Shown in pieces: positions 1 through 55,276 of a DNA stretch of 64,000 bases (within the stretch, counting starts at the first letter, position 1; each line of letters begins with the position of its first letter). The translations under genes were made by a program, and so were the position numbers. The notes beneath the pieces were generated by a model. That model did not search any database. It saw only the letters and a list, made by a program, of their open reading frames with translations, and was not told the origin of the DNA. Source of the DNA: Ulota crispa (Eukaryota; Streptophyta; Bryopsida; Orthotrichales; Orthotrichaceae); the NCBI GenBank assembly GCA_963920765.1, contig OY987249.1:8990817-9054816 (forward strand), given 5' to 3'.

Positions 1-117
1 TATTCTAACTTCTTTATTGATCTCAAATGTAATAAAGGTGTGAATGCACTCCAAATACAAGAAAAATACTCTGTAATGTACTGGTCGCACATGGCTGCTA
101 GGTCGTTCAAGGGTTAA
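1..117. mobile_element. Right part of a TTAA-ended MITE (family TTAA-a)
   Basis: The segment ends in GGGTTAA at 111-117. Read on the reverse strand it matches the short elements at 7084-7315, 44831-45058 and 47190-47423, sharing words such as ATTTGAGATCAA and TTGTATTTGGA. The left end lies outside the window. It has no coding capacity. Confidence 0.7.
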
Positions 118-659
118 CCGCAGCAACGACATAGACCTCTAAGATGCCACATCATATTTCCCGAAACAAAAAATCTCATGACACTGGCTAGTTCAGCTCA
201 CTCTTGCTGATTCACATCAAAACCTAACAGAGATCTCATGCGCGATTCTGTGTGTGAAGGGTCTCAGAACATCTGTCCAGTCCAGATCATCAGCCTAAAA
301 GGGAAGTTCGTCACGTGGCAAATATTGAGATCCGATACGGAAACCTGCCACTCGTAAAGAAAAATGCACATACAGATCCTCCAAAGGTAAACCCAATATG
401 GGACCCTGGTAAACTTTACTCCCAAAACTCGATCAACCAAAAACCCTGCTCTTCTCCAAACATCAAAATTCCTCAGCTGCATTTATACTACAGACTATTC
501 CTCAAATACAAATTTTCCCCAATTGATGTACACATGCTGTTGTTTTATATATAAAAAAATGGAAGCAGATTACCATCTGCTATCCATGTAAGATACGTCA
601 ACAAATTCTATTGGCGTTTTTCCTTCAGAAAAAGGCCAAATTTCTAATAAGAATACTGG
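118..659. other. Intergenic stretch, nothing recognised
   Basis: AT-rich DNA downstream of the XYLT repeats. The short reading frames on both strands resemble no family I know and lack a coding look. I see no RNA gene or inverted repeat. Confidence 0.5.
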
Positions 660-1409
660 ACAAATTGTGCTTCCAGAAAAAGGGCACCTTTGCAGTGCAG
701 TGCAGGCCCAGCAGGAAGATCCGGTCGATGCGCCTCGGCGGCGCTGCCCATGTCAAGCTTACAGAAAGGCACCTTTAGAGCAGCTCCACCCCTTTCACTG
801 GAAAGAGAATGCGACAAGTGTTTTGGAGAGCCACAAAGCAGGTCAATTGCAGTAGCGGTTCCACCATTTTCAAAACACTCCCATTGCACTCACGCTAACC
901 TCTCACCTCTTGCTCTTGCTGTCCTTTCTGCTTCTTCTTTCCAACCCCTTCCAACCATATTTAAGCTATTCTGGTCCTTCGGTGAGCTCTAGCGTGAACA
1001 GGAAAGACCTCCACAATGGCATGAATAGAAGCTTGTACCGGTGGTGGAGGCCCAAACTCCAGGTCCTCTCCAGCGAAGGTACAGGTTAAGTGCGCCTTTC
1101 AGTCTGCCACCGGTGGCGATGCTCTTCCTGTGAAAGGCTTGCAAAAGATCCGGTCTAAGCGCCTCGTGACCTCCGCAGACTTCGCTGCGGGCGCTGCCCA
1201 TGTCAGGCTCATAAAAAAGGCACCTACCTTTGCAGTGCAGGCCCATGAATATTCAAATAGCTGCGCCTCGTGACCTCCGCACACTTCGCTGCGGCGCTGC
1301 CCATGTCAAGCTCATAAAAAAAGGCGCCTTTACTTTACTGTGGAGGCTTGCAAAAGATCCAGTCAATGCGCCTCGTGACCTCCGCATACTGCTGGCCCCA
1401 TGACAAGGC
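660..1409 (-). repeat. Degenerate tandem copies of the XYLT C-terminal coding exon
   Basis: Four decayed units lie just downstream of the XYLT stop, near 667-770, 1087-1205, 1206-1307 and 1308-1407. Each resembles the end of the last coding exon (1410-1510). Shared landmarks are GCGCCTCGTGACCTCCGC, GGCGCTGCCCATGTC and CTCATAAAAAAGGCGCC. In the coding direction they spell versions of the C-terminal peptide around DMGSAA and RLDRIF. Unit length is about 100-120 bp. They are out of frame with each other and are not extra exons, because the intact exon already ends in a stop. They may lie in the 3' UTR. Confidence 0.75.
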
Positions 1410-3987
1410 TCACAAAAAGGCGCCTTTGCTTTGAAGGCCCGTGAAGATGCGGTCGATGAGCCTCGTGACATCCGCGCAGTCGGCGGCGGCGCTGCCCATG
1501 TCGATCTTGTGGTACTCGATGCCCATCCAACGCGACATGACTTCGAAATGCGGGCGGACGAAGTACGGGCTGACCAATTCTAAAATGGCGGTTTTCCCAG
1601 GCCGGCAGAAGAGCAGGTGAGAGAGGCCGGCGCCGTGCGCGCCCACGATGATGGACGACTCGCGCACCTGAACACCATATTCATTAAAATGAGAGAGAGA
1701 TTTCAGACCTCTCAAAATAACCATATTGATTTAGGTCGCGTGACTAGAAGCTCAACTAAAAGCACCAGTTTCCATTAAAATGAGTATGAATTTGACTGTA
1801 AAGATCGTATCAACCGAAAATTTGAAACGTTTTAATGGATATGGTGTTACCTGCTTCACTTGCTCGTCCAGCGTCATGTGCGCCAGCAGCCCGTTCACAA
1901 CAGTAATGCCAAGCTTCGTCTGCCCGGACCTCGCAGACGCCCACGATTGCAGTGCTTCCAGCACTTCCAGTTCATTGCTGAGCCGTGACTCCGGCTTGCC
2001 GGTGTGCCGCGGGTGTGCCAGGTAGTCTTCTCTCCTCACAAACAACACCTTCACAATGGCGCTACTGCTGCTGTCGTCGTCGTCCGGAGGAGGCTCCATG
2101 GTGGTGGTGGTGGGGGTGGTGGTGATGGTGCTTTGGTTGAAGGCTGTGGTGAAAAACTCGCCGAACTCACGCACGCGTGCAGTGTTGTGCCTTGGGTTGC
2201 TAGCTATGTCGTCAGGGGCACAACCCCTGCAAGAAAGGTCAAGATCAAGGCCCTTGAAAAACGGGGAATTGTACCCCAACGGGGAAAAAATCAGGTGGTC
2301 AAAGCACACCGGCCCTGTTAGGTGCCTCGCAAAATGAACTCCACTAAACATGGCTTTCCAAGCGTCGTCCATAGGAGACTGCACAATCATCGACACATTC
2401 CCCCATCAATCAATGACTTCAGCCTACATATAACATATAAATACTAGTGAAGAGGATGAATATAAGCATACAAGAGATGAGCAATGTTACCTAAACCAGA
2501 AAAAACAATAACCTAGCATTGCCAGTTAGAGAGATTGGTGCAAGAATCATTTTCTGTTCGTTTCACCTCGATTTGTTCAAATCTGGTTTTTTTTCTACGA
2601 GAACCAGTGAAATCTAAGTGAGTGTGAAGAGGTTGCAATTGCACAACAGAACGCTTACGTAGCACGTTAAAAAAGGCTTGAAACAACAAGGTTTTAAGCA
2701 ACCACTTTAAGGTAGATTGGACATCCTACGGTGTCATACATGCAATGAATTCTTTTAAACCTGTTATCTCACCCCAGTTGCACATGGTGTTGGTTCAAGG
2801 TTTAAGCTTTGAGGCTTCGACCTATGCAGTATAAAGTGGCCATAGATTCACTACATACAGCTCTCTTATTACTGACTTTGTCAAAACACTTTATATATAT
2901 ATGTATATACACACACACACACACACCTTGCAATGGCCATCCACGAAAATCAAACGTGGCCGCTTCTTCAGGTTTGTGACGCGTGAAGTCATGTACGCAT
3001 TGTACCAGTCCGTGACAGTATGAAACAGATTCGCATACTCGAACCGTGTCACAACGATAGTCGGTGTCGATACTCTCTGCAATGCCACATTCAGTTACAC
3101 TTTTGCACAAATCTCTTACGAAGAAGCCGTTGCTGTACTGTACAGTACAAGCTCAAGCAACTCTGTTTTTAGGGTTTGTCAGTCAGTAGTACCTGTGCAC
3201 AGACGACCTCGTCCACGGGGACGGTGCGGATCTGTTCAAACAGATGGTTCAGGGTGTGCTGCGTGATGGTCTCCACCGGTATGAGCCTCTCCAGCATGGT
3301 CTTGTTGAACAAAGCCCGCCGCTCCTCAGTCTCGGGAACCATGACTTCGAACGCCCCGGTAGTAAAATACGGCAGCTCCTCTTCTTCGTTCCGGCCCATG
3401 ACAGCGTCCAGCGCCTCCCCGCCTTTCGACATCTTGATCTTCTTCGGGTACATGATCATGTTCGTCCCTTCGCAAATGGACGTCCGCAGCGTTTCACTGT
3501 AAAAGCATTGAAACAAACTCCCCTTTGGTGGAGGCTGGTATGGTTTGCTCCGCCTTGGCAGTTGCGCATCGTCACCTTCTTCACCTGCTAGTTGTTGCAT
3601 TCTTCGAGATTTACTCGTGGTGTGTGGACCTGGATCCAGAAGAGTAAAAGCCTGCGTGTAGCCGTTCCCGAAGAAAGCCTCACATGAATCGGCGCTCAAG
3701 TCTGCGTCTACCGTCCATGACGTGAACGACGGCAATTGCGGCCACGGTTTGCCTAACGAAAGACGACCTCCAGATATTCGAATGTTCCCGGGTTGCACGG
3801 GATGGTCCACGGAGTTCAACAGAAAAAAGAGGAGTTGGATCACATTCAGAAACACTAAAACGCCGACCACTCGTTTTACCCAAAGCATTTTCACTCCCCT
3901 TCCTCCTCCTCCTCCCCCTTGAGACTGCATCAACGCCATCTCCAACAAAAAAATCTTCCAAAATGTTATCCCCTCGCCATCAATCAA
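1410..3987 (-). CDS. XYLT: Beta-1,2-xylosyltransferase (GT61), four exons
   Basis: This Golgi enzyme adds beta-1,2-xylose to the core mannose of plant N-glycans. Exons on the minus strand are 3987-3193, 3076-2927, 2378-1851 and 1667-1410. All junctions are GT-AG and phase 0, giving 576 residues. An N-terminal tail precedes one membrane segment (about 40-57), as in type II Golgi enzymes. Hallmarks of plant XYLT are CFYSETLR, KMSKGGEALDAVMGRNEEEELP, RFEYANLFHTVTDWY (about 276-290), FVDGHC, FSPLGY, VLFVRREDYLAHPRH and, in the last exon, the GT61 motif GAHGAGL (500-506). Arabidopsis XYLT is 534 residues. The first Met (3987) is upstream of a second at 3939 that would give 560 residues; either could be used. 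A Thr/Asp/Ser-rich insert follows REFGEFF. A (GT)n repeat abuts the exon 2 donor. The frame is intact, so it is probably functional. Confidence 0.93.
2891..2926. repeat. TA/AC microsatellite at the XYLT exon 2 donor site
   Basis: A run of TA followed by about nine AC units ends directly at the splice donor of XYLT exon 2 (exon end 2927). On the gene strand the intron begins GTGTGTGT..., so several alternative GT dinucleotides stand side by side. Confidence 0.85.
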
Positions 3988-5330
3988 AAATCGTTATCAA
4001 AATGTCCACGATCGCAAGATTCTTGATACGCAATCTGTAGATCTGCTACGAGCGAACTGAAACCCTAATTTGAACTCATTTCGCCGCGGGTTTGATTCGA
4101 TCGATCGATCCCGCTCCAAACCCCTGCCTACGTGGGTTTCATGAAAGTCAATCTCTGCAGCAGCCAAACGATGCAAGCGTGAACCCCGTGACGAAGATCG
4201 AATCAAGCAAACCGACCGACATAGCTTTCCATCCAAATTGAAAAAGCTTTAAAGGTGGATTTTTCCAAAACAATGGGAGTTTTCGAAGCTCGCGCAGAAA
4301 CCCGAAAACGTAAACATATTACATCACGACATAGCGAAAGAAATTAGGTGCGAAGAAACGCTACCTCCCGTTGTTGCCACCAACACGTCGATGATCTCGC
4401 TTCCTCGTTGTCTCTCCCTCGTGACACCATCGCCATCGCCGCGACCTCGTCTACTACACTCGAATCACTCTCCACTGGCGCGAAGTCCAAGAAAACCACC
4501 AAACCCTCAAAATCCACCGAACACCTCCTCGAGTGACAATAATCGACCAATCATCGTGCTATGCGTCAGAATCAAACGACAACGACGATGATGAAGATAC
4601 TACTACTACTACTGCTCGGATATCAACAAAACGAACACTACTTGAGCGCCTACTCTCTCAAACCAATCCGGCATATAAAAATTCAGGGTTAGTTTCGTTT
4701 GATTATCCTAACGACATCGCGTCTGCAGCGTGGCCGGATCTCGCCAGCTGGCTATGGATTCCGACACCATAGTGGTGCGGTACGTTAACAAATTGCAACA
4801 GGCTCAGTATCACTTGCACTTGAATTGAGCACTCTGTGAATAGAAAGTATAGAAAGTGGCGAGAGTGTCATCTGAAGGTACGTTCACAAGGGAAATGTAA
4901 GTACACCATCACAGTACGTGAATCTGTAAGTGAAGGAACGATGAAATGCTACGGATCGACAGACCACGAGCGTTGTCGTGGCATCGAAAGTGTACCCGAT
5001 TGATTCCCCTCATGTCTGGCAAGGGGCAGAAGTGAAGGACAATCAGTTGACTGGAAGGTGGGTCGAAACGGAGTGAGTGAGCTGCTTTCCTCGACTGAGT
5101 GATTTGTGTGCGAAAAAAGCGAAATCTCTCCGCACATGAAACTGATGGATGATTTGAGCACAGATTTCAATGGCCTGTGAGGCTGGCAACATGAAATTCC
5201 GGCGCAAAAGAGAAAGCAAAGATCCAGATGGTTCTTGTGTTGGCCAACGAGCTTGACGAGCTCTCAAAGTTCTTTCGATGGACGGTTTTTTCTACCAACA
5301 CGAGCTCGACGACGTCAAATGCGTCAGTTT
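3988..5330 (-). promoter_or_regulatory. XYLT upstream region
   Basis: This stretch is clearly more GC-rich than the repeats further left and right, as expected of a plant promoter and 5' UTR. Plus-strand frames at 4344-4772 (Thr/Ser-rich, with an Asp/Glu/Thr run) match nothing I recognise. I do not call them genes, though a short divergent gene cannot be excluded. Confidence 0.45.
4060..4068 (-). promoter_or_regulatory. Telo-box-like AAACCCTAA upstream of XYLT
   Basis: The motif lies about 75 bp upstream of the first XYLT Met. Telo-boxes are known in promoters of plant housekeeping and organelle genes. Similar motifs lie upstream of the APO and PPR genes here. Confidence 0.4.
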
Positions 5331-5520
5331 CCTTGGGGGGGTTCAGTGAAACCCACCCTGGAGTTAATGGCTCTGACACCCTTATTTCTGGGGTCAGGGT
5401 TAAAATGGGTCAGGTGTTTTATGTGTTTTCATTGTGAACAGGAGAATCAAAATAAAGAACTTGTCCTTATTTTAGAGTTAGTCATTATATTCCCTTACGG
5501 GTTTTCTTCATATTGCATTT
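5331..5520. repeat. Locally duplicated segment (also at 6230-6365 and 6625-6700)
   Basis: The words GGGTCAGGTGTTTTAT, AATCAAAATAAAGAAC and TGTCCTTATTTTAGAGTT recur in the same order at the two other places, with divergence. It looks like a local duplication broken up by the insertion at 5621-6213. No coding potential is seen. Confidence 0.6.
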
Positions 5521-5620
5521 AGGGCCTCTTTACACTAAAGTAGAAGCATCCAAAAGTGACTCTTACTTTAGATGTGGTAATTTGGAGGGTCTTTTGAGAA
5601 TCTAATGGCATGGGCTTGTA

Positions 5621-6213
5621 AGAGTATCTCCACTGGTCCGCCTGGTTTACAAAACATGCTAGAAACATTTGAGCGGGGTCACTTCGAGTGAAAATGGCCA
5701 GCATCACCTCAATTGTCCACTAGTTTACTGCAATAATGACTTAGGGCATCCTTCCATGCTCCATCGGTACTTGGTAAAACTATATTTAGCGAACCGATAA
5801 TTGGTCAGATCAGAGTTCCATTTTTTGAAACCCCAATTTGACCGATTATCAATCCGCTAAATATAGTTTTATCAGGTACCGATGGAGCATGGAAGGACGC
5901 CCTTAGAAGCAATTTGAGTGGGTTTAGGTATGCTTCTATGTTGTCACGTGTAGACGCCATGGGGCCAATGACAGGTAATTGTTGTGGTGGGCTAGGGCAT
6001 TTAAAATCCAAACTCTCTAAATAGCGTACTAGAGCAGAAATCGAGCTCGCTCAAATAACTTGGAATCATGGGAGGAATGCGTCCCCGAGCTTGAATGCAG
6101 TAAGGCCGCTCACTTGGACGGCTTGAGCGTAACACTGGTGGAGATCCAGACATCCTAAGCGTGCCTCTAGCTCTGCTCATTGGACGTTTATGGGCAACCG
6201 GTGGAGATGCTCT
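5621..6213. mobile_element. MITE with AGAGCATCTCC ends (family GCATC), with an inner insertion
   Basis: The left end is AGAGTATCTCCACTGG and the right end is CCGGTGGAGATGCTCT. The same end motif bounds elements at 18686-19139, 22993-23379, 24924-25240, 25413-25812 and 51513-51831. Its body carries a complete smaller element at 5744-5902. I could not read a clean target duplication, so the superfamily is open. Confidence 0.7.
5744..5902. mobile_element. Tourist-like foldback MITE, 159 bp
   Basis: Both ends begin GGGC(A/G)TCCTTCCATGCTCC and the arms pair for about 65 bp. The element is flanked by TTA on both sides (5741-5743 and 5903-5905), the target duplication of PIF/Harbinger elements. It sits inside the 5621-6213 element and is therefore the younger of the two. 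Confidence 0.8.
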
Positions 6214-6709
6214 TAGGAAATGGGTACAAACCCAGGGGTTTCACTAAAAACTCACCATAGACTTAATGTTTTTGACACCTTATTTTGGGGATCAGAGTAA
6301 AATAGGTCAGGTGTTTTATACATTTTGTGAACAGGAATCAAAATAAAGAACCCATAACATTTAGTAGCTTGAAGAGAGGTTGCCTTTTCCTCTCTTTAGG
6401 TATCATCCACAAACTTCATCATGACAAAAAAAAAAATTTATTTTATTTTTTATTTTATTTTTATGACATGTCTGACCCCCACATTGATGTATGTGCACTA
6501 AACTGAGCTTCTTTTTCATAAACTCTCTGACAAATTCAGCCAAGTGTCCTCTTAGCTACTGATGGATGCGGAATATTTCACACTCTTCAGTTTGAGGGAG
6601 GGCAGGCCTGCTGAGTGCTACTGAATGTTATGTGTCCTTATTTTAGAGTTGGTGGTTTTATTCCTTTACATAATTTCTTCACATCACATTCAAGATGTTT
6701 TTTTGGTTT

Positions 6710-7020
6710 TTCTCAAGGTAGACAAACTCAAACCTCAAAATGTAAGTAGGTAAGGAAAAATTGGCTAAAATTGGAATGAATGAATGATTTGCACTCATTC
6801 ATCCAATATGGTTACTAATAGGTTACTTTCATCCAAAATATGGTGATAAGGTGTTTGATTCTGCAAGATTGTGTTAATTTTATCCACTTTTTCTTACAAA
6901 TTTTTTTGGGTATTGGTTGCTAGAAGCAATTTGAGGTACAAATTGGACAAAAATTCTCCAAGAAAATGAACCTTAATTGCATTTAGGTTGCCTTAACAAT
7001 TCGAGCTGCTTTACATTATA
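6710..7020. repeat. Dispersed repeat plus a fragment of the CACTAAAT family
   Basis: The part up to about 6965 resembles the reverse strand of 51865-52100, with related Asn-codon-like words such as CATCCAA and TTACTAATAGG. At 6972-7000 it runs into TGCATTTAGGTTGCCTTAACAATT, an end piece of the family at 11926-12229. Both are decayed. Confidence 0.4.
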
Positions 7021-7083
7021 TCCAAAGATTGAGAAACCATTGATTTTTACCAATTGTATTGCAAGAATTAGGAATTTGGCATC

Positions 7084-7315
7084 TTAGCCCCTGAATGTGT
7101 AAGCGTGCCGCTATGACCAGTACAATACAATGTGTTTTTCTTGTATTTGGAATGGGTTCACACCTTTATTACATTTGAGATCAACAAAAAAGTTGGAGAA
7201 TAGATTAAACGCGGTTCTAGTGAGCTACTTGATATCCCAAAATTCTTACTGATGGTAGCAATTGCCAATTATACAGCAGCGTATATACTATGCCCTATGG
7301 TCATTTAAGAGTTAA
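7084..7315. mobile_element. TTAA-a MITE, 232 bp
   Basis: It runs from TTAGCCCCTGAATG to CATTTAAGAGTTAA and is similar along its whole length to 44831-45058. One base of the left TTAA has changed. It is non-coding. Confidence 0.75.
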
Positions 7316-7329
7316 CCCTTCAGACTCAA

Positions 7330-9911
7330 GTAACCTTACCTACACCCGAGAGTTTAAGGGTTTAAGGTACTTTAAGGTCTCAAAAAATTCAGGAAAAAAA
7401 TCTTTAAGGTTAGCCTTTCAACAAACTATCAAAGAATATCATTTTTGTGGAAAATATTATTGTAGAATATTTCATATTAAAGGGCAAAGTTACAGCTCAT
7501 AGGGTCCCTAGAAGCAAATCTAGATTAACTTTAATACTATTTAGATGAATTCCTATAATGATACTTGATAATGTCCTGATAGAGATCTCTCCATCATGTA
7601 GATACTCGTTATTTATTTATGTTTATGTTGATTTCAATAAATCAACAGTTGAGACAAAATGAGTGGTTGTGGTGAGGACTACGGTTTGGTGACAGTACAA
7701 CGACCATAGATTTCAGTGCGCTGCGCCGTCTTGTCACATGCATAGCTTAGCGGAGTAAGTAACAGATTGGTTGAGCTAATTTTCTGCCTCACTAGCTGCT
7801 AAGACGTGGACCATCATTATTGTTCAACGAATCCAATGGGATTTGAATTCAGACTAAAGGACGACCAAAGACAACCGCTTCTCTAACCAACCAAATTCAC
7901 GACTTAGTAACTGAAAATAAGCATTTGACACTATTATATATCCGCAAAGGCAAGTGGCCACTTTACGGTGGTGTTTATTTTGTAATTTAATTATTTTTAT
8001 ATATTTATCTAGATGTTTTAGAAAGCTTATATATTTTGCTTTTATTTGAATAAAAAATACTAAGGATTTAGAAGTGAATGAGAAATGTATGAAAAAAAAA
8101 AGTTTGGCATCTATTGTGGAATTAAGATAGAGGGGGACATGGGCTCATATGCTCCACTTCCCTACCTTTAATATGGTTGAAATTAAGGATGAGAGATTCC
8201 TATAGTTGTTGAAAGTTAGTGTATGAGTGTTGGTGGGAAGAAAGAAGAAATTTCGAAACTTTGATGTGAGAGAATTTTATGTATATATATGATTTTGAAT
8301 TGAAATTCGAAGAAGTTGTTTTTTGTATAATTATTTTTCCAAAATGAGTTTGCAAGTTTGATTTGACGTTGTGATGCAAAAGTTATGAATGTTTGAATTT
8401 TGAAGTCAAAAAGTCAAATTATGAAGAAATGCTGAGACTTCAACAAGCCATAGCTTATGATATGTATATTATTTTGCAACAAGATTTAAAAGGAGCGTTT
8501 ATCTTAATCTTAGTTTTTTATAAAGTTTTTAAACTCAAGATTTGAAACTTGGAAAAGAAAGTTATAGAGGTGTGAAGAATTGAAGGTGGCAACTCTTTTG
8601 TTATGAGAAGGCCGAAATTTTGAAGAACTATAAGTTTCGGAGAGTATGAAATTTTCTTTTCAAAATTTTAAAAGTGATAGTTTGTTGTCATAGTTTTCCA
8701 AATTATCTTCAATCATTTCATTTTGAGTCTTATTAAAGAAATCATAATGTATAGAAGTTGGGGATTTAGGTGCTTTAAAAAAAATTGAGAACCACACTTT
8801 GATTAACTAGAGTTTTTAGATAGAGTTTTATTTTGAAGTGAAAATTTTAAGAATGGTAGTCAGTGATTCATCTTTTTAAATTGATATCACAATTCTATGA
8901 ATGATGTGTAGAACAAAAATTATAAAAGTTTATAGAAGCAGTGTTTAGTTTACGATGAGAATAAAAACATTTATACTTTGAACCCGCATAACTTTTGGAC
9001 AGTAGTTTAAATTGACTTGAAATTTGGAGGGATGTTAGAGGGTTAGAAGAGTTTTTCAAATTGCTACTTAGCATTTGGATCTTTGAGCCATCTGTGGCAC
9101 TAGATTGAAAGTTACAGCATATCTAGGGCTTGTTATTTATGATTTTTCCTATTGTTTTGATTAAAATATAAAAATTTGAAGACATGAAGACTTGAAGACA
9201 TGAAGACTTAAAGACATGAAGACTTGAAGATCTGAAATTATGAAGATTTCAAGAAAAATGTTTTGAGTTTATTTTTTATGTATGTATAGGATGTGACTTT
9301 GTTATTCCTAGCCGATTTTGAAGGCTCATTTGTCAATTCATTTTCATTCTGTTTTGTAAATCTTGTTGTGGGTAATTTGAGCTAAACTTAATTTAATCTC
9401 ATTTATTGTCGTGGTAACAAAATGGAATTGATCACCCATATGGTTAAAATTTATTTTATTCTTACAATCTGGATTTTTGTCCAGCAGATTGTGAATTTGA
9501 ATTTAGGATTCCGTCATACGGACGACAACCCGATCTGCTATTCCGATCTATCCTTTTTGTATCCAGTGGACTTTTATATCTACTTTAATCTTTATACTCC
9601 TAGAGCCAGCCACAGAATAGACAAACGGAAATTTGAATATTGAAAATCTGAAGAGTAAAGATCAAGACGAAAAACGATTTTAATTAGCAACGCACGATTG
9701 CAACAAAATATTATGCATGTTCTCAAGGCGCGCTCCTCTCAATCCGACAACAATCTCAATCCTAATTCTCTCAAAGCAGCTTAGCAACTGACATGAGACA
9801 AAATTTGCTTGCACAAATATCATTCACTCCTCCACTTTTGATTTACTAGTATAGTATGCAACTCTTAAATCTAATGTGCAAAATTGAGGGCCGCTTGGGA
9901 TTGGGTTTGTC
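7330..9911. mobile_element. AAGGTAG-family element (I type), split by a 2.2 kb insertion
   Basis: The parts 7330-7556 and about 9716-9911 align in order with the element at 50008-50837. Shared words are GGTTAGCCTTTCAACAA, CTCATAGGGTCCCTA and CTTAGCAACTGACATG. The intervening block has no counterpart there and is treated separately. Confidence 0.55.
7557..9715. other. Unclassified 2.2 kb insertion, AT-rich
   Basis: This block interrupts the repeat around it and must be a later insertion, but I see neither clear end repeats nor protein motifs. It contains a decamer-like tandem run (GAAGACATGAAGACTT and variants) at 9179-9240. A long non-coding transposon or the decayed remnant of a retroelement are both possible. 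It looks broken and old. Confidence 0.35.
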
Positions 9912-10331
9912 TTAGGTAGAAGCACCCAATTGCAGCAGTAGCAATTTTGCAACATCTTAAATTAAACCTAAAGTAGACACATTTGCACCTAAACAAGATA
10001 CAAATATATCCAAATGAGATACACAAGTTAACATAAGAGAACAAAAATTGTGTAAGTGGCAATTTGTGATTGGGTGTGACATGATCTTTTTGTTGTCATG
10101 ACATGATCTTGTTATAGTCGCTTTTTTATGGATCTAGTGTCCACAATAGGTCAATCTAAGAAGTGACTTTCAACAATTCATAATTTATTCATACAATCTC
10201 AATAAATTCCAAAAACAATTTTACTTGAATCTGTACCCAATTCCTAACAAGCACATGCCATTTCATTCTCAAAAGAACCCTCCAGATTACCACATCTGAG
10301 GTAAGTGTTACATTTAGGTGCTTCTACCTTA
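9912..10331. mobile_element. AAGGTAG-family MITE (K type), about 420 bp
   Basis: The left end is TTAGGTAGAAGCACCCAA and the right end is TTAGGTGCTTCTACCTTA, which are inverted copies. The end motif is close to that of the I-type element it adjoins. No target duplication is readable and there is no coding capacity. Confidence 0.55.
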
Positions 10332-10851
10332 CCTATGCACAACCCTACACCAGTTTTGGCCGGTTTTCTATACCAATTGAGAACCGCCGGGTAGCCCAAG
10401 CAACAGGGTATGTGCCTCTTTTGTCTCGAAGCCTTCCTGCGAGTGCGAGAAGACAGAAATTCTCAGTCCTCTCAACGCAAGCTCCACAGGAATTCTCTGT
10501 AGCGTTTTGCTTGTTCCAGCGTAATTGAAGGACTTTCACAAAGCACTATTTCAATTCCATGTGCAACTCTTCCAGGACGAAGGAGCTCAGTACAACACCA
10601 ACGCTCTCGGCGTAGAATCAAACGCAAATTTGAGATGAATCGAACGGTACGATATGAATATATATTCACGCTAATCAGTGTCGGTGACAAATCCTCGTCA
10701 AAATTACATCGAGTGGAAGCTGAATACCACGTAATCTCCAATCCCTAAACCGCACAGTACCAGTAGTTTTGAATTTTTATGCTCTTTCAGAATTAGGGTT
10801 TCGGCACATATTTTCTTGGAAGGTTTGAATTTGCATTAGATGTGAGGAGAT
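10332..10851 (+). promoter_or_regulatory. Non-repetitive DNA upstream of the APO gene
   Basis: Composition rises toward genic GC and no repeat copies are seen, so this is probably the original APO promoter region, later pushed back by the MITE at 10852-11263. TTAGGGTTT at 10793-10801 is telo-box-like. A minus-strand frame at 10472-10741 matches nothing I recognise. Confidence 0.4.
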
Positions 10852-11263
10852 TTAACCCATTAACGTCTGGTCGACCATTTCCTGGTCAATTTTGACTCTT
10901 TTAAGTTTGTAGAGAGAGCATGTCAAGGAATTTGATGACTTGGCAAAGGGGAAGGTATGGGGAAGGGGAAGGTATGGGGAATTGGAAAGTGAAGAGTCTA
11001 GGACAATAACCAGGTCAATTTGAGATGGCATGTGGCTAGAGGGTTGAAAACACTATATGAGTACCGGCTGAAAATACACCATTAAATGCAAAAAGATGGT
11101 CATAACAACTAAAGAGTGAGCGTATCCCTAAACCCTGCAAGATACTTCCATTTATATGGTCAAATATGTGGTAGACATATGTATTCAATAGTTTTAAATT
11201 TTCCCCCAAATGACCATACAAAGGATTGCCCACCCCAGAATCGACCACAGACGTTAATGGGTT
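10852..11263. mobile_element. TTAA-b MITE, about 410 bp, upstream of the APO gene
   Basis: It runs from TTAACCCATTAACGTCTG to CAGACGTTAATGGGTT and is an inverted-orientation copy of 37825-38236 in the PPR gene. The right TTAA is degraded to TTCT. It ends about 140 bp before the APO start codon, so it may influence the promoter. Confidence 0.8.
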
Positions 11264-11399
11264 CTACTCAGGGATCTGTGATTGTTTTGCAATGTGTGAT
11301 TTACAGCTCGAGTTGCTCTCTCACGTGCTCGTTGGATTGTTTTTCAGACGCTGGCATTTTGGTGACGAGTCGAGTGTTTTGATTTTGCGAGAGAGAAGA

Positions 11400-14300
11400 A
11401 TGGCGGTCGCGTCGGTGTCGCAAATTACCGCGGTGTCGACTTGCTCGTTCGTGAGGTCGTCACCGCGAGTGAAGTCGACCGTAGTGTCGTTCGGCATCCA
11501 GAAGAAGTGCAGCTATGGCTGCTCCTCCAGCAGATTCTTGGCTTCCGAAACGCCTTTCTCCTTTGTGGTTTTGAAAACTGGCGGCAAGCCGGGCACGAGA
11601 ATTGGTACGTGTTTTTTTTAGGCTTTTGACTCCTTTTCGGTTGTTTTCGGGAATATTGTATTGGAAATTAGAGGGACTTGCAAATTTACTGTATTGGAAA
11701 TTACAGGGACTTTGCAAATTTGTTGCGAATTTTTGTGTTGCAAGGGAGAGGATACTAAAACCGCCAGGAACCTGATCCCGACTCCTGTTACCAGCGGCAA
11801 CTCATCCACACTTGGTTGGCTTTTTAATTAGCAACTAGATTGTAAGCTTGATTAGGCTAAATGTCCATGGCCACTCATTTTTTCATGGAACGAGGGTTTC
11901 CAGTTGTCACTTTTACTGTCACTGGTACACTGAATATTGCATTTAGGTTGCGTTGACAATTAGGTTGCCTTACCATGGTAAGGCACCTCATGACTCATCA
12001 CTTGACCACTTGGAGGTGCATGCAACTCTCTAAATACTTGGATTTCACATGGTTTATGATTTGAAAGCTATTCATTTGTCTTTTCTCAACTTCATTGTTG
12101 TTAACAGGCCATTTAAAAACTATTTATTGCAGTGATTTTGATGAAGTTATTGTAACAGCAGTAAGTATTTATATAGTGTGAACTGTCGAGAAATTAGTGT
12201 GGGGCAACCTAAACGCAATATTCAGTGTATCGATTTACAATCTTTGACTTTGAAATTGTCTAAGAAATTCATACTCGGTGATAGAAATTTGATCTGAACA
12301 GATTTGGCTCTTGTGTCCAAAGCTCCCTCCAGAGTTCTATGAGTTGTCTATAAACATACTCCTATATTTGTGAAAATGCTCAAAGTGACGCAAGTAAGAT
12401 ATTTTCACCCTTTTCCCAGAATGATGAGTTTTGTTCCCATTTGTACAGTTCATGCGCAAGGCCAAAATTATCAACAAAACGAGGACTTACCAACGACTAA
12501 GTCGACAAAAGTGAAGAAGCCATTTGTGAGACCTATCAAGCATGGCAGTCACCAGAAGAGAATGAAGAGAAGGGAGCTCAGGCAGTTACCTCCGAAGCCT
12601 TTAAAGGCGCCTGCGAATGGCTTGCTCGTAGAAAAGCTAATACCATTGGCACATTCTGTATACAAAGCGTATCTAGTCGTCTTGGATGGTGTTTCCAGAC
12701 TTGTGAAACATCTGCCCGTTAAAGCCTGCAGGTACACTAAAGGTTTGGTTTTTTTTTTCTTCCTTATTTTAACTTCTCTCAGGTGTCTACTTGGAAATCT
12801 TCAATGTATTGGAAATTTATGCTATTCCGGTGACCAATATATCTTAACTCCCTTTTTAAGAAGTCTCTTCTTGAAGGAAGGTAAACAGAATGTACCAACA
12901 GGAAGAGAAATAATCATACGCAACATGGTTTCATGATAGAAATTTGTTTCTGGAGAGTTACAAACTGTTGACTATGGACATTTACGGATTAGTCAAAGGT
13001 AACCTTTACACGATCCGCATGTGTCTAGTGTTTGAAAACTGATGCGTGATGCTTTTAATGTGCAGGTGGTGCTCAGAAATACATGTGGCAAAAGTAGGAC
13101 ATGGCATAAAGACATGTCTTGGAAAGAACAACTCTGGACGCTATGGAGAGCATTTATGGGTGCCTGGGTATCTGGATGACGTCGTAGCCCCGTTGGAAGC
13201 TTTCCATCTAGTCGATCGCCTGCAGAAGCCCATACCACATGAAGACAGATTTAAACATGATAGAATTCCGGCTATTGTAGAGTTGTGTATCCAGGCAGGT
13301 GTGGATCTACCAGAGTTTCCAACAGTGAGGAGGACTACACCTGTTGACAGTTCATTTATCTGGCCTAAGGTTGGTAGCGGTGAAGACCTTGCTACTATAT
13401 ATGAAATCAATGGCAGAAATAGAACAGCGAGTATTGATAATGATGAAGCTATGACATTGGCTTCTAGTAGTGAAGGAGTGTTACAATGTATGGCAACAGA
13501 TCAACCGGAGATACCAAGAGATGAAACAGGAGAGAGTCAGAGAGAGCGCATGGATGTGGTTACTATTAGTGATGATGATGATTTGAAGACAGTGGCGAAG
13601 AAAACATTGCGTGCCTGGGACCAGATGCGTGCAGGAGCTGCTAGACTAATGGCCACATATCCAGTCAGGGCCTGTGGTTACTGCCCTGAAGTTCACGTTG
13701 GTCGTAAAGGCCACAAATTACAGTTATGTGGCGCATTCAAGCATCAGTGGCGCAACGGGCAGCATGGGTGGCAAGATGCGGCTTTGGATGATTTGATTCC
13801 TCCCAGGTATTTCTTCACATCCCGAATTGCTTCTCCTTTACGAAAAGTAGTTCAACAACAGATCGACTAAAGGCTACTCTACATTGCACCGGTTGAAACA
13901 ATGGGCTTAAAAATTTTGAATCAACATTGTGTGTAACCAGGGGCTTGATAACGAACTTAATCCCTTGGAGTGCCTGGGAGGAAGAATTACGTTGATTTGG
14001 ACCTTTTTGAGGAAAATAAAGTATGGCCTCTAGAAGTAAGATCTTAATTTTTGCAAGTTTTTCTTCTTCTTCTTCCATCTCTGCATGAACTGATTCAAAG
14101 CCTTGCACAATAATTATGAAGTACCTAATGTCATTGAAGAATAGTCAAAAATTGCTCTCTAAGCATACTTGGATGTACTCCATCCTTTTCAATCAGCTCC
14201 TACTGTAAGCACTTGAAAACATACATCGTCCATTGGACGCTGGCTCTCGTAAGGGTTGCTTGAAAATACTCATCGTCCACCCATTGGAAGCTGCCTCTTT

Positions 14301-14925
14301 TATTTCAAATTATTTCATTTCTATTTGTGACATATTTAAGGTGACAAATGTGCAATTCACTTCTAATTTGCTTCCAAGAGGTAGCTTGAAGCCTCACCAT
14401 CTCAAATATTTTGGGAGCCATACAGTCGCCATTTCTTCGTTTTCATTCTTGTGTCGTAGCTAGTGTATAGTTGATATTGCACAAAACTAGGTGACACCAA
14501 CAGATTGGGTTTTTTTGCACCAGGTCTGGTAATCGTGTATTATTTCTTGTTATCTCAAACCGGTTGCTTCAACATGTGCAATATAGTGCGAAAGTAATAA
14601 ATACGGACTTGCTTGGCAGAACCGTGTCGTGAGAGTATTGCATGACTTAAACTCTAGGCAATAGGAATGTGAAGCCATGCTATGAATGATTTGGAAGGAT
14701 GTGCAAATCAGTAACAATGTGTGTGGTGTGTGCAGTTTTGTTTGGCACGTGCGTGACCAGGATGGACCGCCACTAAGGAACAAGTTTGCGAAATATTATG
14801 GTAAAGCTCCCGCTGTTGTAGAATTGTGTGTTCAGGCAGGTGCTGACATTCCCTCCAAGTATAAGCCGTTTATGCGGCTTGATGTCATCATACCTGATGA
14901 AGATGAGCTAGAGATGGTGGCCTAG
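11400..14925 (+). CDS. APO-family chloroplast protein (APO1/APO2-like), four exons
   Basis: APO proteins are plant-specific, plastid-targeted RNA-binding factors. APO1 is needed for photosystem I accumulation and chloroplast intron splicing. Exons are 11400-11604, 12449-12731, 13066-13806 and 14736-14925, with GT-AG junctions, giving 472 residues. The two APO zinc motifs have the form C-x2-C-x3-H-x5-H-x4-C at about 162-180 (CRWCSEIHVAKVGH...C) and 366-384 (CGYCPEVHVGRKGH...C). Flanking family signatures are NGLLVEKLIPLAH, RIPAIVELCIQAGVD, KHQWRNGQHGWQDAALDDLIPP and VWHVRD. The first about 40 residues are a transit peptide strikingly like that of LHCB6 in this window. The exon 3/4 junction reads PPSFVWHV where relatives usually have PPRYVWHV. 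APO1 and APO2 cannot be told apart by eye. Confidence 0.9.
11926..12229. mobile_element. CACTAAAT-family MITE in APO intron 1
   Basis: The ends are TACACTGAATATTGC and GCAATATTCAGTGTA, followed inward on both sides by TTTAGGTTGC. Relatives are 40530-40833 in a PPR intron and the copy split over 51256-52590. Each whole copy is bordered by TA, which favours a TA target duplication over the 3-bp duplication of CACTA elements. Confidence 0.75.
13957..14133. mobile_element. Partial TTAA-m element in APO intron 3
   Basis: From TTAATCCCTTGGAGTGCCTGG it follows 42671-42850 for about 170 bp, including GATTTGGA, a pyrimidine run near TTTCTTC and TGATTCA..CCTTGCACAA. The right end is not recognisable. 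Confidence 0.5.
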
Positions 14926-19607: not shown

Positions 19608-19724
19608 GCCAAATTGCCGCCACTCTCCCGTTCAACCCCTCACGATTACCGCCTCGCCGTTGCCGAAGCTCACATTCGGCAGGGACACTCCAACAGTAAT
19701 ACCAAAGGTGAAGCTTTTACAGCA

Positions 19725-20640
19725 ATGGCGGTGGCCAGCAGCGCGTCGGTGTCGCAGATTACCGCATCGGTCGCGAGATCCTCCTTCGTGGGGTCGTCAC
19801 GGAGCTTGCAGGCCAGCCCCGTGGTGTCGTTCGGCATCAAGAATGTGAGCCGCGTGGTGGCCATGGCCACTAAGAAGTTCAGCGCCAAGCCCACCGGAGG
19901 GAAGAAGTCGTGGATTCCTGCTGTCAAGGGTGGCGGTAGCTTGGTCGACCCCGAGTGGCTTGATGGCTCGTAAGTCTCACACAACTTCTCAATTACTGAA
20001 AATTGCTAATGCCAGAGCACTGGGATTATGTAACGAATGCAATGTAGGGTTAAGTCTCATGGTGGCATTGTTGTGGTGATGCTGGTGCAGGCTTACCGGT
20101 GATTATGGATTCGATCCCTTGGGATTAGGCAGGGACCCGTCGTCGCTGAAGTGGTACAGAGAGGCGGAGCTGATCCACGGGCGATGGGCGATGACCGCGG
20201 TGGTGGGGATTCTTATCGGGCAGGGATGGAGCGGTGTGCCGTGGTTCGAAGCTGGTGCCGAGCCATCTGCCGTAGCGCCGTTCTCGTTCGGTAGTCTGCT
20301 TGGTACACAGCTGCTGCTGATGGGATGGGTGGAGACGAAGAGGTGGATCGATTTTCTGAACCCCGGCACGCAAGCCGTGGAGTGGGCGACGCCGTGGTCA
20401 CGAACTGCTGAGAATTTCAACAACTCCACGGGAGTGCAGGGCTACCCCGGAGGCAAGTTTTTCGACCCTCTGGCGTTTGCCGGGTCCGTGAATAGCGGAC
20501 AGTACGTGCCCGACTTCTCGAAGCTGGAGAGGTTGCAACTCGCCGAAATCAAGCACGCGCGCCTGGCGATGGTGGCGATGCTCATCTTCTTCCTCGAGGC
20601 CGGGCAGGGGCTGACCCCCCTGAGCCCCCTTGGCCTGTAA
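19725..20640 (+). CDS. LHCB6: CP24, minor PSII antenna protein, copy A
   Basis: CP24 is a chlorophyll a/b-binding thylakoid protein that links LHCII trimers to the photosystem II core. Exons are 19725-19969 and 20091-20640, split inside a Ser codon with a 121-bp GT-AG intron, giving 264 residues. A Ser-rich transit peptide covers the first about 45 residues. The mature protein shows the CP24 signatures [20 protein letters not shown] and [11 protein letters not shown]. The two LHC helix motifs are [11 protein letters not shown] (106-116, with pigment ligands Glu108 and His111) and [12 protein letters not shown] (234-245). [12 protein letters not shown] and the C-terminus EAGQG-TPL..LGL distinguish CP24 from CP26, CP29 and the Lhca proteins. 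The frame is intact. Confidence 0.96.
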
Positions 20641-20873
20641 ATACCACTCCAATTTTGAGCCGTTTGTCGATGCTGTACCATTCTTATCATGAAATCTACT
20701 GTTTCCTCACATTCCCTTTTTTCCACTATGTACGTCTATGTGCATGGATAGCTTGTTTGAATATGTATTTGTCTTGCTTTGTATCTGTATGACTTGGTTT
20801 ATCACGTAAGCATGCTGGGTTTGAGAATTCTCGTCATGTTGGTTTCGTTTGCGTGGAAGTTTGAGAATGATTC

Positions 20874-27137: not shown

Positions 27138-28335
27138 TTAGAGGCCAAGAGGGGTCAGAGGGGTCAGCCCCTGCCCGGCCTCGAGGAAGAAGATGAGCAT
27201 CGCCACCATCGCCAGGCGCGCGTGCTTGATTTCGGCGAGTTGCAACCTCTCCAGCTTCGAGAAGTCGGGCACGTACTGTCCACCATTAACGGATCCAGCC
27301 AGTGCAAGCGGGTCAAAGAATTTGCCTCCGGGGTAGCCCTGCAGCCCCGTGGAGTTGTTGAAATTCTCAGCAGTTCGTGACCACGGCGTCGCCCACTCCA
27401 CGGCTTGCGTGCCAGGGTTCAAAAAGTCGATCCACCTCTTCGTCTCCACCCATCCCATCAACAACAGTTGTGTACCGAGCAGACTGCCGAACGAGAACGG
27501 CGCTACGGCAGATGGCTCGGCACCAGCTTCGAACCACGGCACACCGCTCCATCCCTGCCCGATAAGAATCCCCACCACCGCGGTCATCGCCCATCGCCCG
27601 TGGATCAGCTCCGCCTCTCTGTACCACTTCAGCGATGAGGGGTCCCTGCCTAATCCCAAGGGATCGAATCCGTAGTCACCTGGCAGCCTGCACACACAGC
27701 CATACTTTCATCAGAATTGTATTCACTCACTCGGCTTCATAATCCCGGTGCAATTCCCACACGTTCATCGACAAGGAGATTATTTGGGTTTACTAGGTAG
27801 TGAACTCACTACCATCACCACATCCAAAAGTGGTAAAATCAGTGTAATACCACTTTGCAATTTTCCAAAGTAGTAAATATACCGATTTTACCACGTGATG
27901 GTAGTGAGTTCACTACCTAGTAAACCCAAATAATCACCTTGTATATTTGCCTTCCCTTCAAGGCCAAAACTACATACATTGTACAGTAACGCCGTCCGAG
28001 TATACGACAAGAGAGGAAGCATTTCACCAGCATTGACAAAGCTAATCTCAAAATTGATGTTGGGCAATTTAGAAGCCATGCGAGACTTACGAGCTGTCGA
28101 GCCACTCGGGGTCGACCAAGTTGCCGCCGCCTCGGACACCAGGAAGCCACGACTTCTTGCCTCCGGTAGGCTTGGCGCTGAACTTCTTAGTGGCCATGGC
28201 CACCACGCGGCTCACATTCTTGATGCCGAACGACACCACGGGGCTGGCCTGCAAGCTCCGTGACGACCCCACGAAGGAGGATCTCGCGACCGATGCGGTA
28301 GTCTGCGACACCGATGCGCTGCTCGCCACCGCCAT
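27138..28335 (-). CDS. LHCB6: CP24, minor PSII antenna protein, copy B
   Basis: This is a second, intact CP24 gene in opposite orientation, tail to tail with copy A. Exons are 28335-28091 and 27687-27138; exon lengths (245 and 550 bp) and intron position equal those of copy A, giving 264 residues. By eye about 11 residues differ, among them [12 protein letters not shown] against [12 protein letters not shown] and SLPGDYGF against SLTGDYGF, where Pro is the residue usual in CP24. All LHC helix motifs and pigment ligands are kept. The intron is 403 bp rather than 121 bp, in part because of a palindromic insertion (27771-27942). Both copies look functional, so this is a recent duplication. Confidence 0.95.
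27771..27942. mobile_element. 172-bp palindromic MITE in the LHCB6 copy B intron
   Basis: The outer arms ACAAGG(A/T)GATTATTTGGG pair for about 45 bp (through TTTACTAGGTAGTGAACTCAC), followed by further imperfect pairing. It is absent from the copy A intron, so it arrived after the duplication. Confidence 0.8.
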
Positions 28336-36800: not shown

Positions 36801-39800
36801 ATGGCGTCCCGGAAGAGTTTGAAGCTTCTTTGCAAGCATTTGAACGGGCGCCACCAGACTCGGAGCCTAAGCGCGCTTGCAGGAAATGTTCAAGAGATTA
36901 TTGCATCGTCGGAGGGTTTTAGGGTTTTAGGGTTCGGAGGTGCGAGGAACGTGAGTAGCAGTGCGCATTGCGCGTCGATATCGTCTCAACTCGAAGTGAA
37001 GATCGAATTATCCGATCCAGCGCCAGGATTCCAAGCATTTGGAGCGACGGCATCGAAAGGGCCTCGATTTGCTCTCCCGTTCAAACCGTTTGTGCCGCCG
37101 ACGCTCACGCCCATCGAGAAGCTGGACGCGGCGGGATTGGCGCGAGAGATGTCCAATGCGCTCTCTCATCAGAAGATGGACGAGACGGTGCGACTTTACG
37201 ACGACTGGATCAAGATGACGGACGCAGCTGGAAACCCTAATAAGCCGAACATCTTGGTGTACAATTTGCTGCTTCATGCGAAGCTCCGCCTTGGTGCTCA
37301 TCCGGATGCCATGCACCAGATTGTGAACCAAATGGAAGAAGGCGGCGTCACTCCCACGCAGCTGTCGTTCAATTTTCTCTTGCGGTCTGTTTTTCGGCAA
37401 CGCGATTCTAAAGCCGCCGAATTTGTCCTTTACAAGTAAGTTTTTCCTTTAACCTGGTGCCAATTTAGTACTTTTCGTGAAACTTGAAGAATACATCTGC
37501 TTTATACTAGAATTTGCTTTACCATAGAATCCTCCTCTAAAATTTGCATTGCTAACCTTCTTTCAGTGAAAAAAATCTGCTGAATCTATTGAATAGCTCT
37601 TAGCTTGGTGCCGGTTGCAGTACTTATCATGAAACTTGAAGAATACACCTGCTTTACACTAGAATTTGCTTTCTACAGAATTCTCCTCTAAAATTTGAAG
37701 TGCTAATCTTCTTTCAGTGAAAAAAATGTGCTGAATCGAATAGCCTTTAGCTTGGTGCCAGTTGCAGTACCTAAGGTAGCAGCACTCATAACCGTCAAAT
37801 TAAGGGTTTTGAACATGATGATTATTAACCCATTAACGTCTGTGGTCGATTCTGGGGTGGGCGATCGTTTGTATGGCCATTTGGGGCAAATTTTAGGATT
37901 ATTGAATACAGATGTCTACCACAGATCTGACCGTACAAATGGAAGTATCTTGCAGGGTTTAGTGTTATGCATCATGAATTATACTCACTTTTTAGTTGTT
38001 ATGGCCATCTTTTTGCATTTATTGGTGTATTTTCAGCCGGTATTCTTTTAGTTTTTTCAACCCTCTAGCCACATGCCACCTCAAATTGGCCTAGTTATTG
38101 TCCTAAACTCTTCACTTTCCAATTCCCCAGACTTGTCCCCTTTGCCAAGTCATCAAATTCCTTGACATGCTCTCTCCATAAACTGAAAAGAGTCAAAATC
38201 AACCAGGAAATGGTCAACTAGATGTTAATGGGTTAATAAACATCTAGCAAATTTTAGGATCCTATTAGCAATGAGTTTGCACTTTTGAATGGTATTATTT
38301 GAATAATCTGAGAATAAGTTGTGAATTTTTAAAGAGCCGGCTGCAATTGCACCTAATACCAACACTAAGGTTTCATGTTCACATGCTGTACATCCTTGTA
38401 ATTACATCCATTCACTTCCACAGATTTTCCAAGATTTTAGAGGTGATGGTTATGGGTGTTGCTACCTTATCTTGAAACTTGAAGAATGCATCTGCTTTAT
38501 ACTAGAATTTGCTTTACCATAGATTTCTCCTTTAATACTTGGAATGCTAGCCTTCTTTCTGTGAAAAAAGACTGCGGAATCTATTGATTAGTTCTGTGAA
38601 GACGTGTTTCAAGCTCTTTTTTTCGGTATTTCAATGGCGAATCTGAAAGTGTATCGAATCTAAGCATAATATGTTCCTTCTATTACGCTCGTTTCGCGTT
38701 AGTTTACATCTTATCCAAGAGGCCACTGATCGCTACTCTGTTTTTAGGGTTAGGGTGAGAGACTAGAACCACGACTTGTTGAAGAAGCGAATTTAATGTC
38801 AATATGTTTCATGCAAACCATGAGTTATGAGTTGTTAAGAGTATTAAAAAAAGTTCAAAATTCTAAACACAATCTAGAAAAGGAAATCGACATCTGTTCA
38901 AGGAGTGATAATGCACCATTTTGTTCTTAAGTAAATACTCTAATGTGAACAATCTCTGTGCAAGATTCTGCTCAGAATGGAACAAGCCGGCCCAGAGGCG
39001 CAACCGGATGGAGATGCATACAACTTTGTCATTGCGTTGTGTGCAATAAACCGAAGAATACCACCTGCGTTGAGGCACATGCAGGCAATGCACGAGCGAG
39101 GTTTTGTTCCGAGCAAGACTACTTATAATGAAGTACTGCTTGCTTGTGCTCGTCTCCACCGCTCCCAAACAGCGGTTGCTGTTATGAAGCAAATGCAGGT
39201 ATAAGCTCATAAACGCTGTTTTTGCCTTTAGTTTTATTATCATCTCTAACAACCTGAAGAGGAAAGAGACTAGTCAAAGGTCAAAAGATTTAAAAAGTCT
39301 TAATTTCTGAAAATCTATCAAAAACAACAATACAGTGGTGCTTGGATAAGGTCAACACTTCGGGCTGGAAAAATTTGCTGACCTTACCCAAGCATTGATC
39401 GTAAAGAAACACTCTATTTGCATTACTTTCCCTAGTTCTAGTGGTTGCAACTTTAGAATTGCTTTTCCACCATGTTTTTGGTACACTAACTAACTGATGA
39501 GTCAAAATGGGCATTGATGAAAAAAAATATTGACCATATGCAAGCACTTGACCTCAATCAAGCTCATAATACATGCTTTGGGCAAAAGGGGAGTGGGAGT
39601 GTGATCTTATCCATTCTTTGTTATAAAGGTTGACGCTAACCAAGCACCACTGTAATATGTTTGGACCTATTATTTCAAACAATGAATCTCGTGCTTAGTG
39701 GAGTGGTGACATGTTGTTATAGATATAGTGGATATTTTCTGATTAGGATTTTTGGAAATTTTAGTCAATGTGGATGGTACATGTTGACGATTAACTGGAA

Positions 39801-54129: not shown

Positions 54130-55276
54130 GTTAATGATTATTATGGTAGAAGACAACATAGACAATGGTAGAAATTTCCCTGCTCTCTTCACAACTGAAA
54201 AACTATGCATGAAATTGTATGGCATTACACTCTAAAAATACAAGATGCTAGATGGCATTTAGAATATTGGATGTCTTGGACAATATTTAACAGTTTATGT
54301 GATTTAGTGCATCCTTACTTTTTTTTAAACTACAAATATTTGAGAACGTATAGATGTTGAACGCATCGTTGTTATGGTTTTAAAAATATTAGCATGTAAT
54401 TATTCAAAGGGAATAATTGCAAATTTATATAGTACAGGTAGCACAACTGTTTTTAATTATACACTTTTAATTACAGAAGTTCTTGCAAATAAGGATAAAA
54501 TGTTTTCTAAATTTATTCATATTCCAAGTGGTCAAAAATTGCTTAGCACTATTCAAAAATTCAAAAATTAAATAGGAATTTTTCAAATATGCGGTGCAAT
54601 TGACGGAATTCATATTAAACTAATCGAAAAACCTCGTTTAAAACTAGTTCCCGCAAAATATTAAAATCGACATGATTATTACAATGTTTTATTGCAAGCT
54701 ATTTGTAATAGCGATTTGTGTTTTGGGAACATAGTAGTGCTTGCTCTTGAAGGTACACATGATAAATCTCATCTTCAAGCTTCAAATTATTACTGAAGTT
54801 CAATGAACCGGGAAATTTTGCAAGAGCCAAATATCATCATCAACGGCGAACAAGTTCTACCATATGTGGTTAGTGATTCAACCTATCATCTTTTGACACA
54901 TTTGATAAAAGCATATAATTTAAGAGCCTCCAGAGATGCTACAAAATATTCTTTTGATAAGACTTTTAGGCGAGGACGTGTCAAAATAGAAAACTCATTT
55001 GCTCATTTGAAGAATAGATGGCAAGTTCTCAAAAATATAAATTTTAGTGTACAATTTGCAGGGCAAATTGTTCTTGCATGTCGTGTTTTGCAAAAAATTT
55101 GCAAAATTCACAACGAAGAATTAGTGTTGGATGGAAACAATGATATAGACGATCATTTAAATCGTAATGACATTAGAGTTCCTAGGCCACAAGTAACAAA
55201 AGGTGCTTCTAAAGTAAGTTCATTTAGGATCCAAGATGTTTTGTATTCTGGGTGGATTACAATTGTAATTCAATAA
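54130..55276 (+). pseudogene. Broken PIF/Harbinger transposase (DDE family, HARBI1-like)
   Basis: One frame spells a Harbinger nuclease: KILACNYSKGIIANLYSTGST (about 54380-54440), ICGAIDGIHIKL (first catalytic Asp), RHDYYNVLLQAICNSD, THDKSHLQASNYY, MNREILQEPN, VSDSTYHLLTHLIKAYN (second Asp) and RRGRVKIENSFAHLKNRW (Glu) near 54967-55020. In-frame stops at 54569, 54662 and 54794 interrupt it, so it cannot be active. The frame after 54803 remains open for 157 codons. The N-terminal part before 54374 is worn. No target duplication or terminal repeats could be fixed. Confidence 0.88.

Follow-up and report, generated by a model that had tools for sequence, protein, structure and literature searches.

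We describe here a stretch of coding sequence that is common to two neighboring genes of the moss Ulota crispa, one encoding a product with the APO RNA-binding domain and the other encoding LHCB6 (CP24), a minor antenna protein of photosystem II. Both lie within a window of 64,000 nucleotides (contig OY987249.1, labeled C8, positions 8,990,817 to 9,054,816 of the forward strand). The DNA of the shared tract is more similar than is expected from the peptides and their codon bias, and common descent of the two tracts, with a local origin, is well supported by the sequence comparisons. We consider it probable that the 5’ part of LHCB6 was duplicated locally and fused in frame to APO exon 1. The features concerned, numbered from the first nucleotide of the window, are as follows.

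11400 to 11604, plus strand: APO exon 1, 205 nt with the start codon at 11400, encoding about 68 residues (putative chloroplast transit peptide) and followed by a phase-1 intron.
11400 to 11510, plus strand: tract common to APO and LHCB6, APO codons 1–37 (BLASTN block 11408–11503, with a codon alignment reaching the ATG).
11511 to 11604, plus strand: remainder of APO exon 1, likeness to LHCB6 not established.
12449 to 12731, 13066 to 13806, and 14736 to 14925, plus strand: APO exons 2–4, with PF05634 in two stretches.
19725 to 19969, plus strand: LHCB6 copy A (LHCB6A) exon 1, transit peptide (approximately residues 1–47) and the start of the mature protein, followed by a phase-2 intron.
20091 to 20640, plus strand: LHCB6A exon 2.
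28091 to 28335, minus strand: LHCB6 copy B (LHCB6B) exon 1.
27138 to 27687, minus strand: LHCB6B exon 2.

The four APO exons join in frame at GT/AG sites, from which the exon ends were deduced, and the gene model was built from sequence alone. The product matches PF05634, the APO RNA-binding domain, with 319.5 bits (E 8.9e-96; cut-off 25) and belongs to that family; a PF05634 search of the genome listed four places, three of them above the cut-off, and all four lie within the APO gene of the window. Flowering plants have several APO genes, and we know of no plastid-encoded homologue of APO. According to one account, APO1 (ACCUMULATION OF PHOTOSYSTEM ONE 1) is a chloroplast group II intron splicing factor in maize and Arabidopsis, and its domain is plant-specific (PMC9275481). 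The domain family PF05634, judged by the name of the model, is common to APO1 and the gene described here, whose product is likely a chloroplast RNA-splicing factor, and homology to LHCB6 makes the exon 1 product a putative chloroplast import signal. The exon 2 frame continues without a stop codon into the upstream part of the gene, within intron 1 (12343–12448), and contains in-frame ATGs, and an alternative start there could yield an APO protein that is devoid of the LHCB6-like peptide. Intron 1 also carries a MITE-like repeat of approximately 304 bp with inverted ends (11926–12229), which is present in high copy, with at least 71 genome matches including the query (40 scored out of 4797 first-look candidates). 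Elsewhere in the window there is a transposase-like frame (DDE_Tnp_4, 54797–55276), and there are two PPR-like frames (36801–37439 and 39891–40430), the second of which scores below the family cut-off.

Among the solved light-harvesting chains listed (the best 60 of 624 matched), LHCB6 of the window is nearest to CP24/Lhcb6; the two best chains, which are named CP24 or Lhcb6, match with E 4e-114 and 5e-113, and the top four chains score 375–384 bits compared to 189 for the fifth. Of those four, 8z9d and 5xnl are named CP24/Lhcb6, and 7oui and 5mdx are named only as chlorophyll a-b binding proteins. Chain 44 of 8z9d is the sole LHCB6 chain that resembles a full precursor, and the transit peptide described here is unlike it and aligns with it poorly. 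In the moss P. patens, the mature N-terminal peptide of LHCB6 is given as ATKKVSARPAAGGK, with Thr-2 at precursor position 48 (PMC9434285). The counterpart of this peptide begins at residue 48 in the LHCB6 described here, so the transit peptide is about 47 residues long, insofar as the reported moss peptide is a guide.

LHCB6 is present here in two copies that are inverted relative to each other, and APO, LHCB6A, and LHCB6B all lie inside 17 kb. Identity between the coding sequences of the two copies is approximately 94%: of 795 nucleotides, 50 differ, three of them among the 150 nt of codons 1–50 and 47 among the 645 nt of the remainder (19717–20661 compared with 28343–27117). Their introns can barely be aligned, with one 34-bp piece at 73.5% identity and other pieces that are short and weak; patches of similarity remain upstream, and the likeness of the 300-nt 5’ flanks is detectable (0 of 1000 shuffles reach it). 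The contrast between similar coding regions, closest in codons 1–50, and a diverged intron and most of the flank suggests either gene conversion or codon constraint. The LHCB6B intron contains a long inverted repeat, spotted by eye at 27780–27936, which is possibly another small transposon. Outside of the window, eight strong matches to PF00504 (antenna protein) are found on both strands within 0.4 Mb at C4:21391382-21771811, a cluster of major antenna genes. For one major antenna protein of the genome, the highest-scoring solved sequences other than multi-domain chains of entry 9vfj are 7xqp and 8htu, from P. patens (457 and 456 bits), followed by 8c29 (436 bits), which points to a moss, as does the likeness of the LHCB6 mature N-terminus to that of P. 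patens.

The resemblance of APO exon 1 to the LHCB6 transit peptide, first proposed in a sequence-only reading of this DNA, is borne out at the nucleotide level. BLASTN aligns APO 11408–11503 with LHCB6A 19742–19843 at 79 of 102 identical positions, the six gap positions forming two 3-nt gaps, and the corresponding figure for LHCB6B is 77 of 102. In a MAFFT alignment of the DNA the start codons of APO and LHCB6 are out of register, and in the codon alignment a 9-nt gap between the BLASTN block and a matching ATG brings them together, such that the gaps within the tract are of 9, 3, and 3 nt, all multiples of three. A DNA string quoted as common to the genes, GCGTCGGTGTCGCA(A/G)ATTACCGC, holds for LHCB6A but not for LHCB6B, in which codons 7 and 12 are different.

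The match is exclusive to these genes in DNA searches of the genome (274,817,297 bases), which skip very common words. Apart from its own locus, APO exon 1 with a 70-nt leader matches LHCB6A (E 2.7e-13) and LHCB6B (E 1.4e-10) and nothing else; LHCB6A exon 1 returns LHCB6B and APO; and LHCB6B with flanking sequence returns LHCB6A, APO, and a patch upstream of LHCB6A. Six-frame protein searches, in each of which two candidates were scored, did not list the partner gene: the LHCB6 search listed the two LHCB6 copies, and the APO search listed APO itself and a place on C2 at E 0.82. The matching genes are also linked. The separation of 8 kb stated in the earlier reading is correct from start codon to start codon, but the gap between the genes, from the APO stop codon to the LHCB6A ATG, is 4.8 kb. 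By simple arithmetic, an unrelated best partner is expected to fall within 20 kb with a frequency of 1.5e-4 (40 kb/275 Mb).

Transit peptides rich in Ser and Val could be alike merely through their composition and a common codon bias, and convergence of this type has some points in its favor, as TCG is frequent in both tracts. When the APO peptide was held fixed and its codons redrawn from the usage of APO exon 1, of LHCB6, or of the whole of APO, 2, 0, and 0 of 3000 trials, respectively, scored as well against LHCB6A as the real sequence does; no trial did so when the peptide was shuffled (0 of 3000) or the codons were shuffled (0 of 3000). Among the degenerate codons that specify the same residue in APO and LHCB6A, 16 of 23 are identical, compared to expectations of 7.0 (sd 2.1) or, with APO exon 1 codon usage, 9.7 (sd 2.3); for LHCB6B, 14 of 22 are identical with 6.7 or 9.3 expected. 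The DNA identity thus exceeds the level forced by the peptide. The redraws, the identical-codon counts, and the genome-wide DNA searches, which matched no further gene, strongly disfavor convergence, as does the presence of the partner only 8 kb away, and we regard it as extremely improbable.

A comparison by codon position, which had been suggested with the earlier reading, could be made over 35 codons and gives 8, 4, and 10 differences at positions 1, 2, and 3 against LHCB6A, and 8, 5, and 11 against LHCB6B. Together with the in-frame gaps, this pattern suggests that both tracts stayed coding. It also bears on the possibility that the tract is a relic, a 5’ fragment of LHCB6 lying upstream of APO, with the true first exon of APO elsewhere. 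The open frame that extends upstream of exon 2 to 12343, with its ATGs, would accommodate such an arrangement; however, the gaps keep the frame, the GT/AG sites are phase-correct, and codon position 2 is the least changed, and a relic is therefore very improbable. Four-fold sites differ at 23 of 144 positions between LHCB6A and LHCB6B, at 5 of 17 between APO and LHCB6A, and at 6 of 17 between APO and LHCB6B, and they were not used as a clock because the LHCB6 introns are almost unalignable while the coding regions are about 94% identical. As to which copy was the donor, APO agrees with LHCB6A at the two aligned sites where the LHCB6 copies differ, but LHCB6B may simply be derived at both.

The clear match ends inside exon 1 of both genes, at approximately codon 37 of 68 in APO and codon 40 in LHCB6, whose first exon has 81 codons plus 2 nt, and the tract therefore covers about 40 of the 47 residues of the LHCB6 transit peptide. 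Past this point the peptides align weakly, pairing SRFLAS..TGGK in APO with SRVVAM..TGGK in LHCB6 (an alignment as good arises in 95 of 3000 shuffles), the DNA of the two genes has no alignment beyond chance (289 of 1000 shuffles reach the score), and the gaps introduced by MAFFT are no longer multiples of three. The boundary also bears on how the tract moved. The sequence-only reading had proposed capture of a targeting exon, that is, classical exon shuffling, in which a transit-peptide exon is transferred via recombination in introns. APO exon 1 is indeed separate and precedes a phase-1 intron, an organization like that proposed for the recruitment of a transit peptide by chl-fus (PMC4522979). 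However, the segment is not enclosed by introns of equal phase: no intron interrupts LHCB6 where its transit peptide ends, the first LHCB6 intron is of phase 2 whereas that of APO is of phase 1, LHCB6 exon 1 continues into the mature protein, and the clear tract stops within both exons. Exon capture in this form is not supported by these structures and is quite improbable.

We also considered whether a degenerate third copy of LHCB6 is present at APO. In a permissive tblastn search of the window with LHCB6, the sole good match near APO is of residues 7–60 at 11409–11588, with the remaining rows near APO at E 8 or worse; this candidate was rejected, and no LHCB6 remnant beyond exon 1 was found near APO. 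The 300-nt 5’ flank of APO has no detectable similarity to that of LHCB6A or LHCB6B (644 and 409 of 1000 shuffles, respectively, reach the scores), and transfer of a promoter from LHCB6 to APO is unsupported by these comparisons. Loss of similarity in the flank does not prove that the transfer was restricted to coding sequence, because even between LHCB6A and LHCB6B the similarity survives only patchily in the upstream sequence and is almost gone from the intron.

Codon usage provides an indication of direction. In APO, GC3 is 31/37 (0.84) in codons 1–37, 20/31 (0.65) in codons 38–68, and 171/404 (0.42) in exons 2–4, and in LHCB6 it is 0.88 (A) and 0.85 (B) in the first 40 codons and 0.76 (A) and 0.75 (B) in the rest. 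Codons 1–37 of APO differ from the body of the gene (Fisher p 1.1e-6), as do codons 38–68 (p 0.023), and the two segments of exon 1 have no significant difference from each other in GC3 (p 0.093). The log ratio of LHCB6 usage to APO-body usage is +24.1 for APO codons 1–37 and -2.3 for codons 38–68, the latter being slightly above all of 367 windows of the APO body (mean -15.4, maximum -2.5); the ratio was trained on LHCB6 beyond codon 50 and on APO beyond codon 69, so that the body is scored on its own usage, which favors the contrast. The cumulative codon score has risen to 23.4 by APO codon 35, reaches its maximum of 25.5 at codon 46, and declines from there, and a peak of this height was obtained in 0 of 10000 shuffles.

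GC3 in the first 37 codons is at most 0.68 in all 14 control frames, comprising four mTERF frames (0.49–0.65), eight PPR frames (0.35–0.68), and two frames of the window (0.59 and 0.51), although several of the control starts are uncertain. Seven mTERF loci were tried, three of which lack a clean frame, and 11 of 18 were unused; all eight PPR frames were used, of which at least four have starts that look internal. Twelve CRM-domain loci were left out of the controls, as were four antenna frames (from eight tried) with internal starts and first-37-codon GC3 of 0.73–0.81. A high GC content may also have other causes in the first exons of genes with many introns. Given homology, we nonetheless think it likely from the codon usage that the transfer was from LHCB6 to APO. 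The reverse, in which APO was the source of the transit peptide for an ancestor of both LHCB6 copies, is unlikely, as the shared tract is LHCB6-like in codon usage within an otherwise low-GC3 APO gene and the LHCB6 peptide fits its own body, although 8z9d chain 44, with its poorly aligning transit peptide, lends no support to the LHCB6 peptide being the ancestral state. Searches for outside relatives, with LHCB6 in a genome-contig collection and with a segment of the protein encoded by APO exon 3 in viral contigs, found none.

The duplication that we favor can be set out as a series of steps, in which we infer the mechanism as well as the direction, the import function, and the age of the event. 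The opening codons of the two genes, about 37 in APO and about 40 in LHCB6, derive from a common ancestral sequence. A 5’ part of LHCB6, minimally the ATG and the greater part of the transit peptide and perhaps also a leader and promoter, would have been duplicated locally and inserted upstream of APO, approximately 8 kb away, where it would have been joined in frame to APO’s own exon 1, either replacing or extending its targeting peptide. As the fusion point is inside an exon, recombination between the present introns would not be needed. The LHCB6-like N-terminus of APO would then serve the import receptors, with cleavage occurring either in sequence peculiar to APO or in a remnant of low conservation (SRFLA in APO, SRVVA in LHCB6). 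The broader proposal, that a nuclear gene renewed its targeting peptide from a linked antenna gene by way of a sub-exonic tract, possibly together with a promoter and with no intron recombination, is one that we make only tentatively and regard as doubtful.

Capture of a transit peptide from another nuclear gene is already known. As described for Populus and other Malpighiales, rpl32 acquired its transit peptide from SOD1, a Cu-Zn superoxide dismutase gene that had been duplicated (PMC8018952). The two cases are alike in that the transit peptide of a plastid-targeted gene is homologous to that of an unrelated nuclear gene, and the source is recognizable from peptide identity, which is 59.4% in that description. 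They differ in that the rpl32 recipient is a gene that moved from the plastid, with exon shuffling proposed (PMC8018952), whereas the recipient here carries an RNA-binding domain that is specific to plants, the tract is shorter than an exon, and the two genes have remained neighbors. A second case, as reported, is chl-fus (cEF-G), in which a transit-peptide exon was recruited at a phase-1 intron (PMC4522979). Like APO, it encodes its transit peptide in an exon of its own with a phase-1 intron after it, but the clear tract described here stops short of the intron, and no corresponding intron is present in the putative donor. A literature search at the level of titles and the openings of abstracts, which is no proof of absence, did not turn up a named peptide common to APO and LHCB6.

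Because transit peptides diverge so quickly, it is seldom possible to trace where one came from. In the present case the recipient, its probable donor, and the second copy of that donor lie within 17 kb and are alignable as DNA, so that the origin of the peptide, its boundary, and its later divergence are directly readable. Besides intron-mediated exon shuffling, the case suggests a second route, sub-exonic capture. If our reading of it is true, a plastid splicing factor may have come under the control of an antenna gene, and local capture between linked genes, if it occurs generally, would partly account for the fast turnover of transit peptides.
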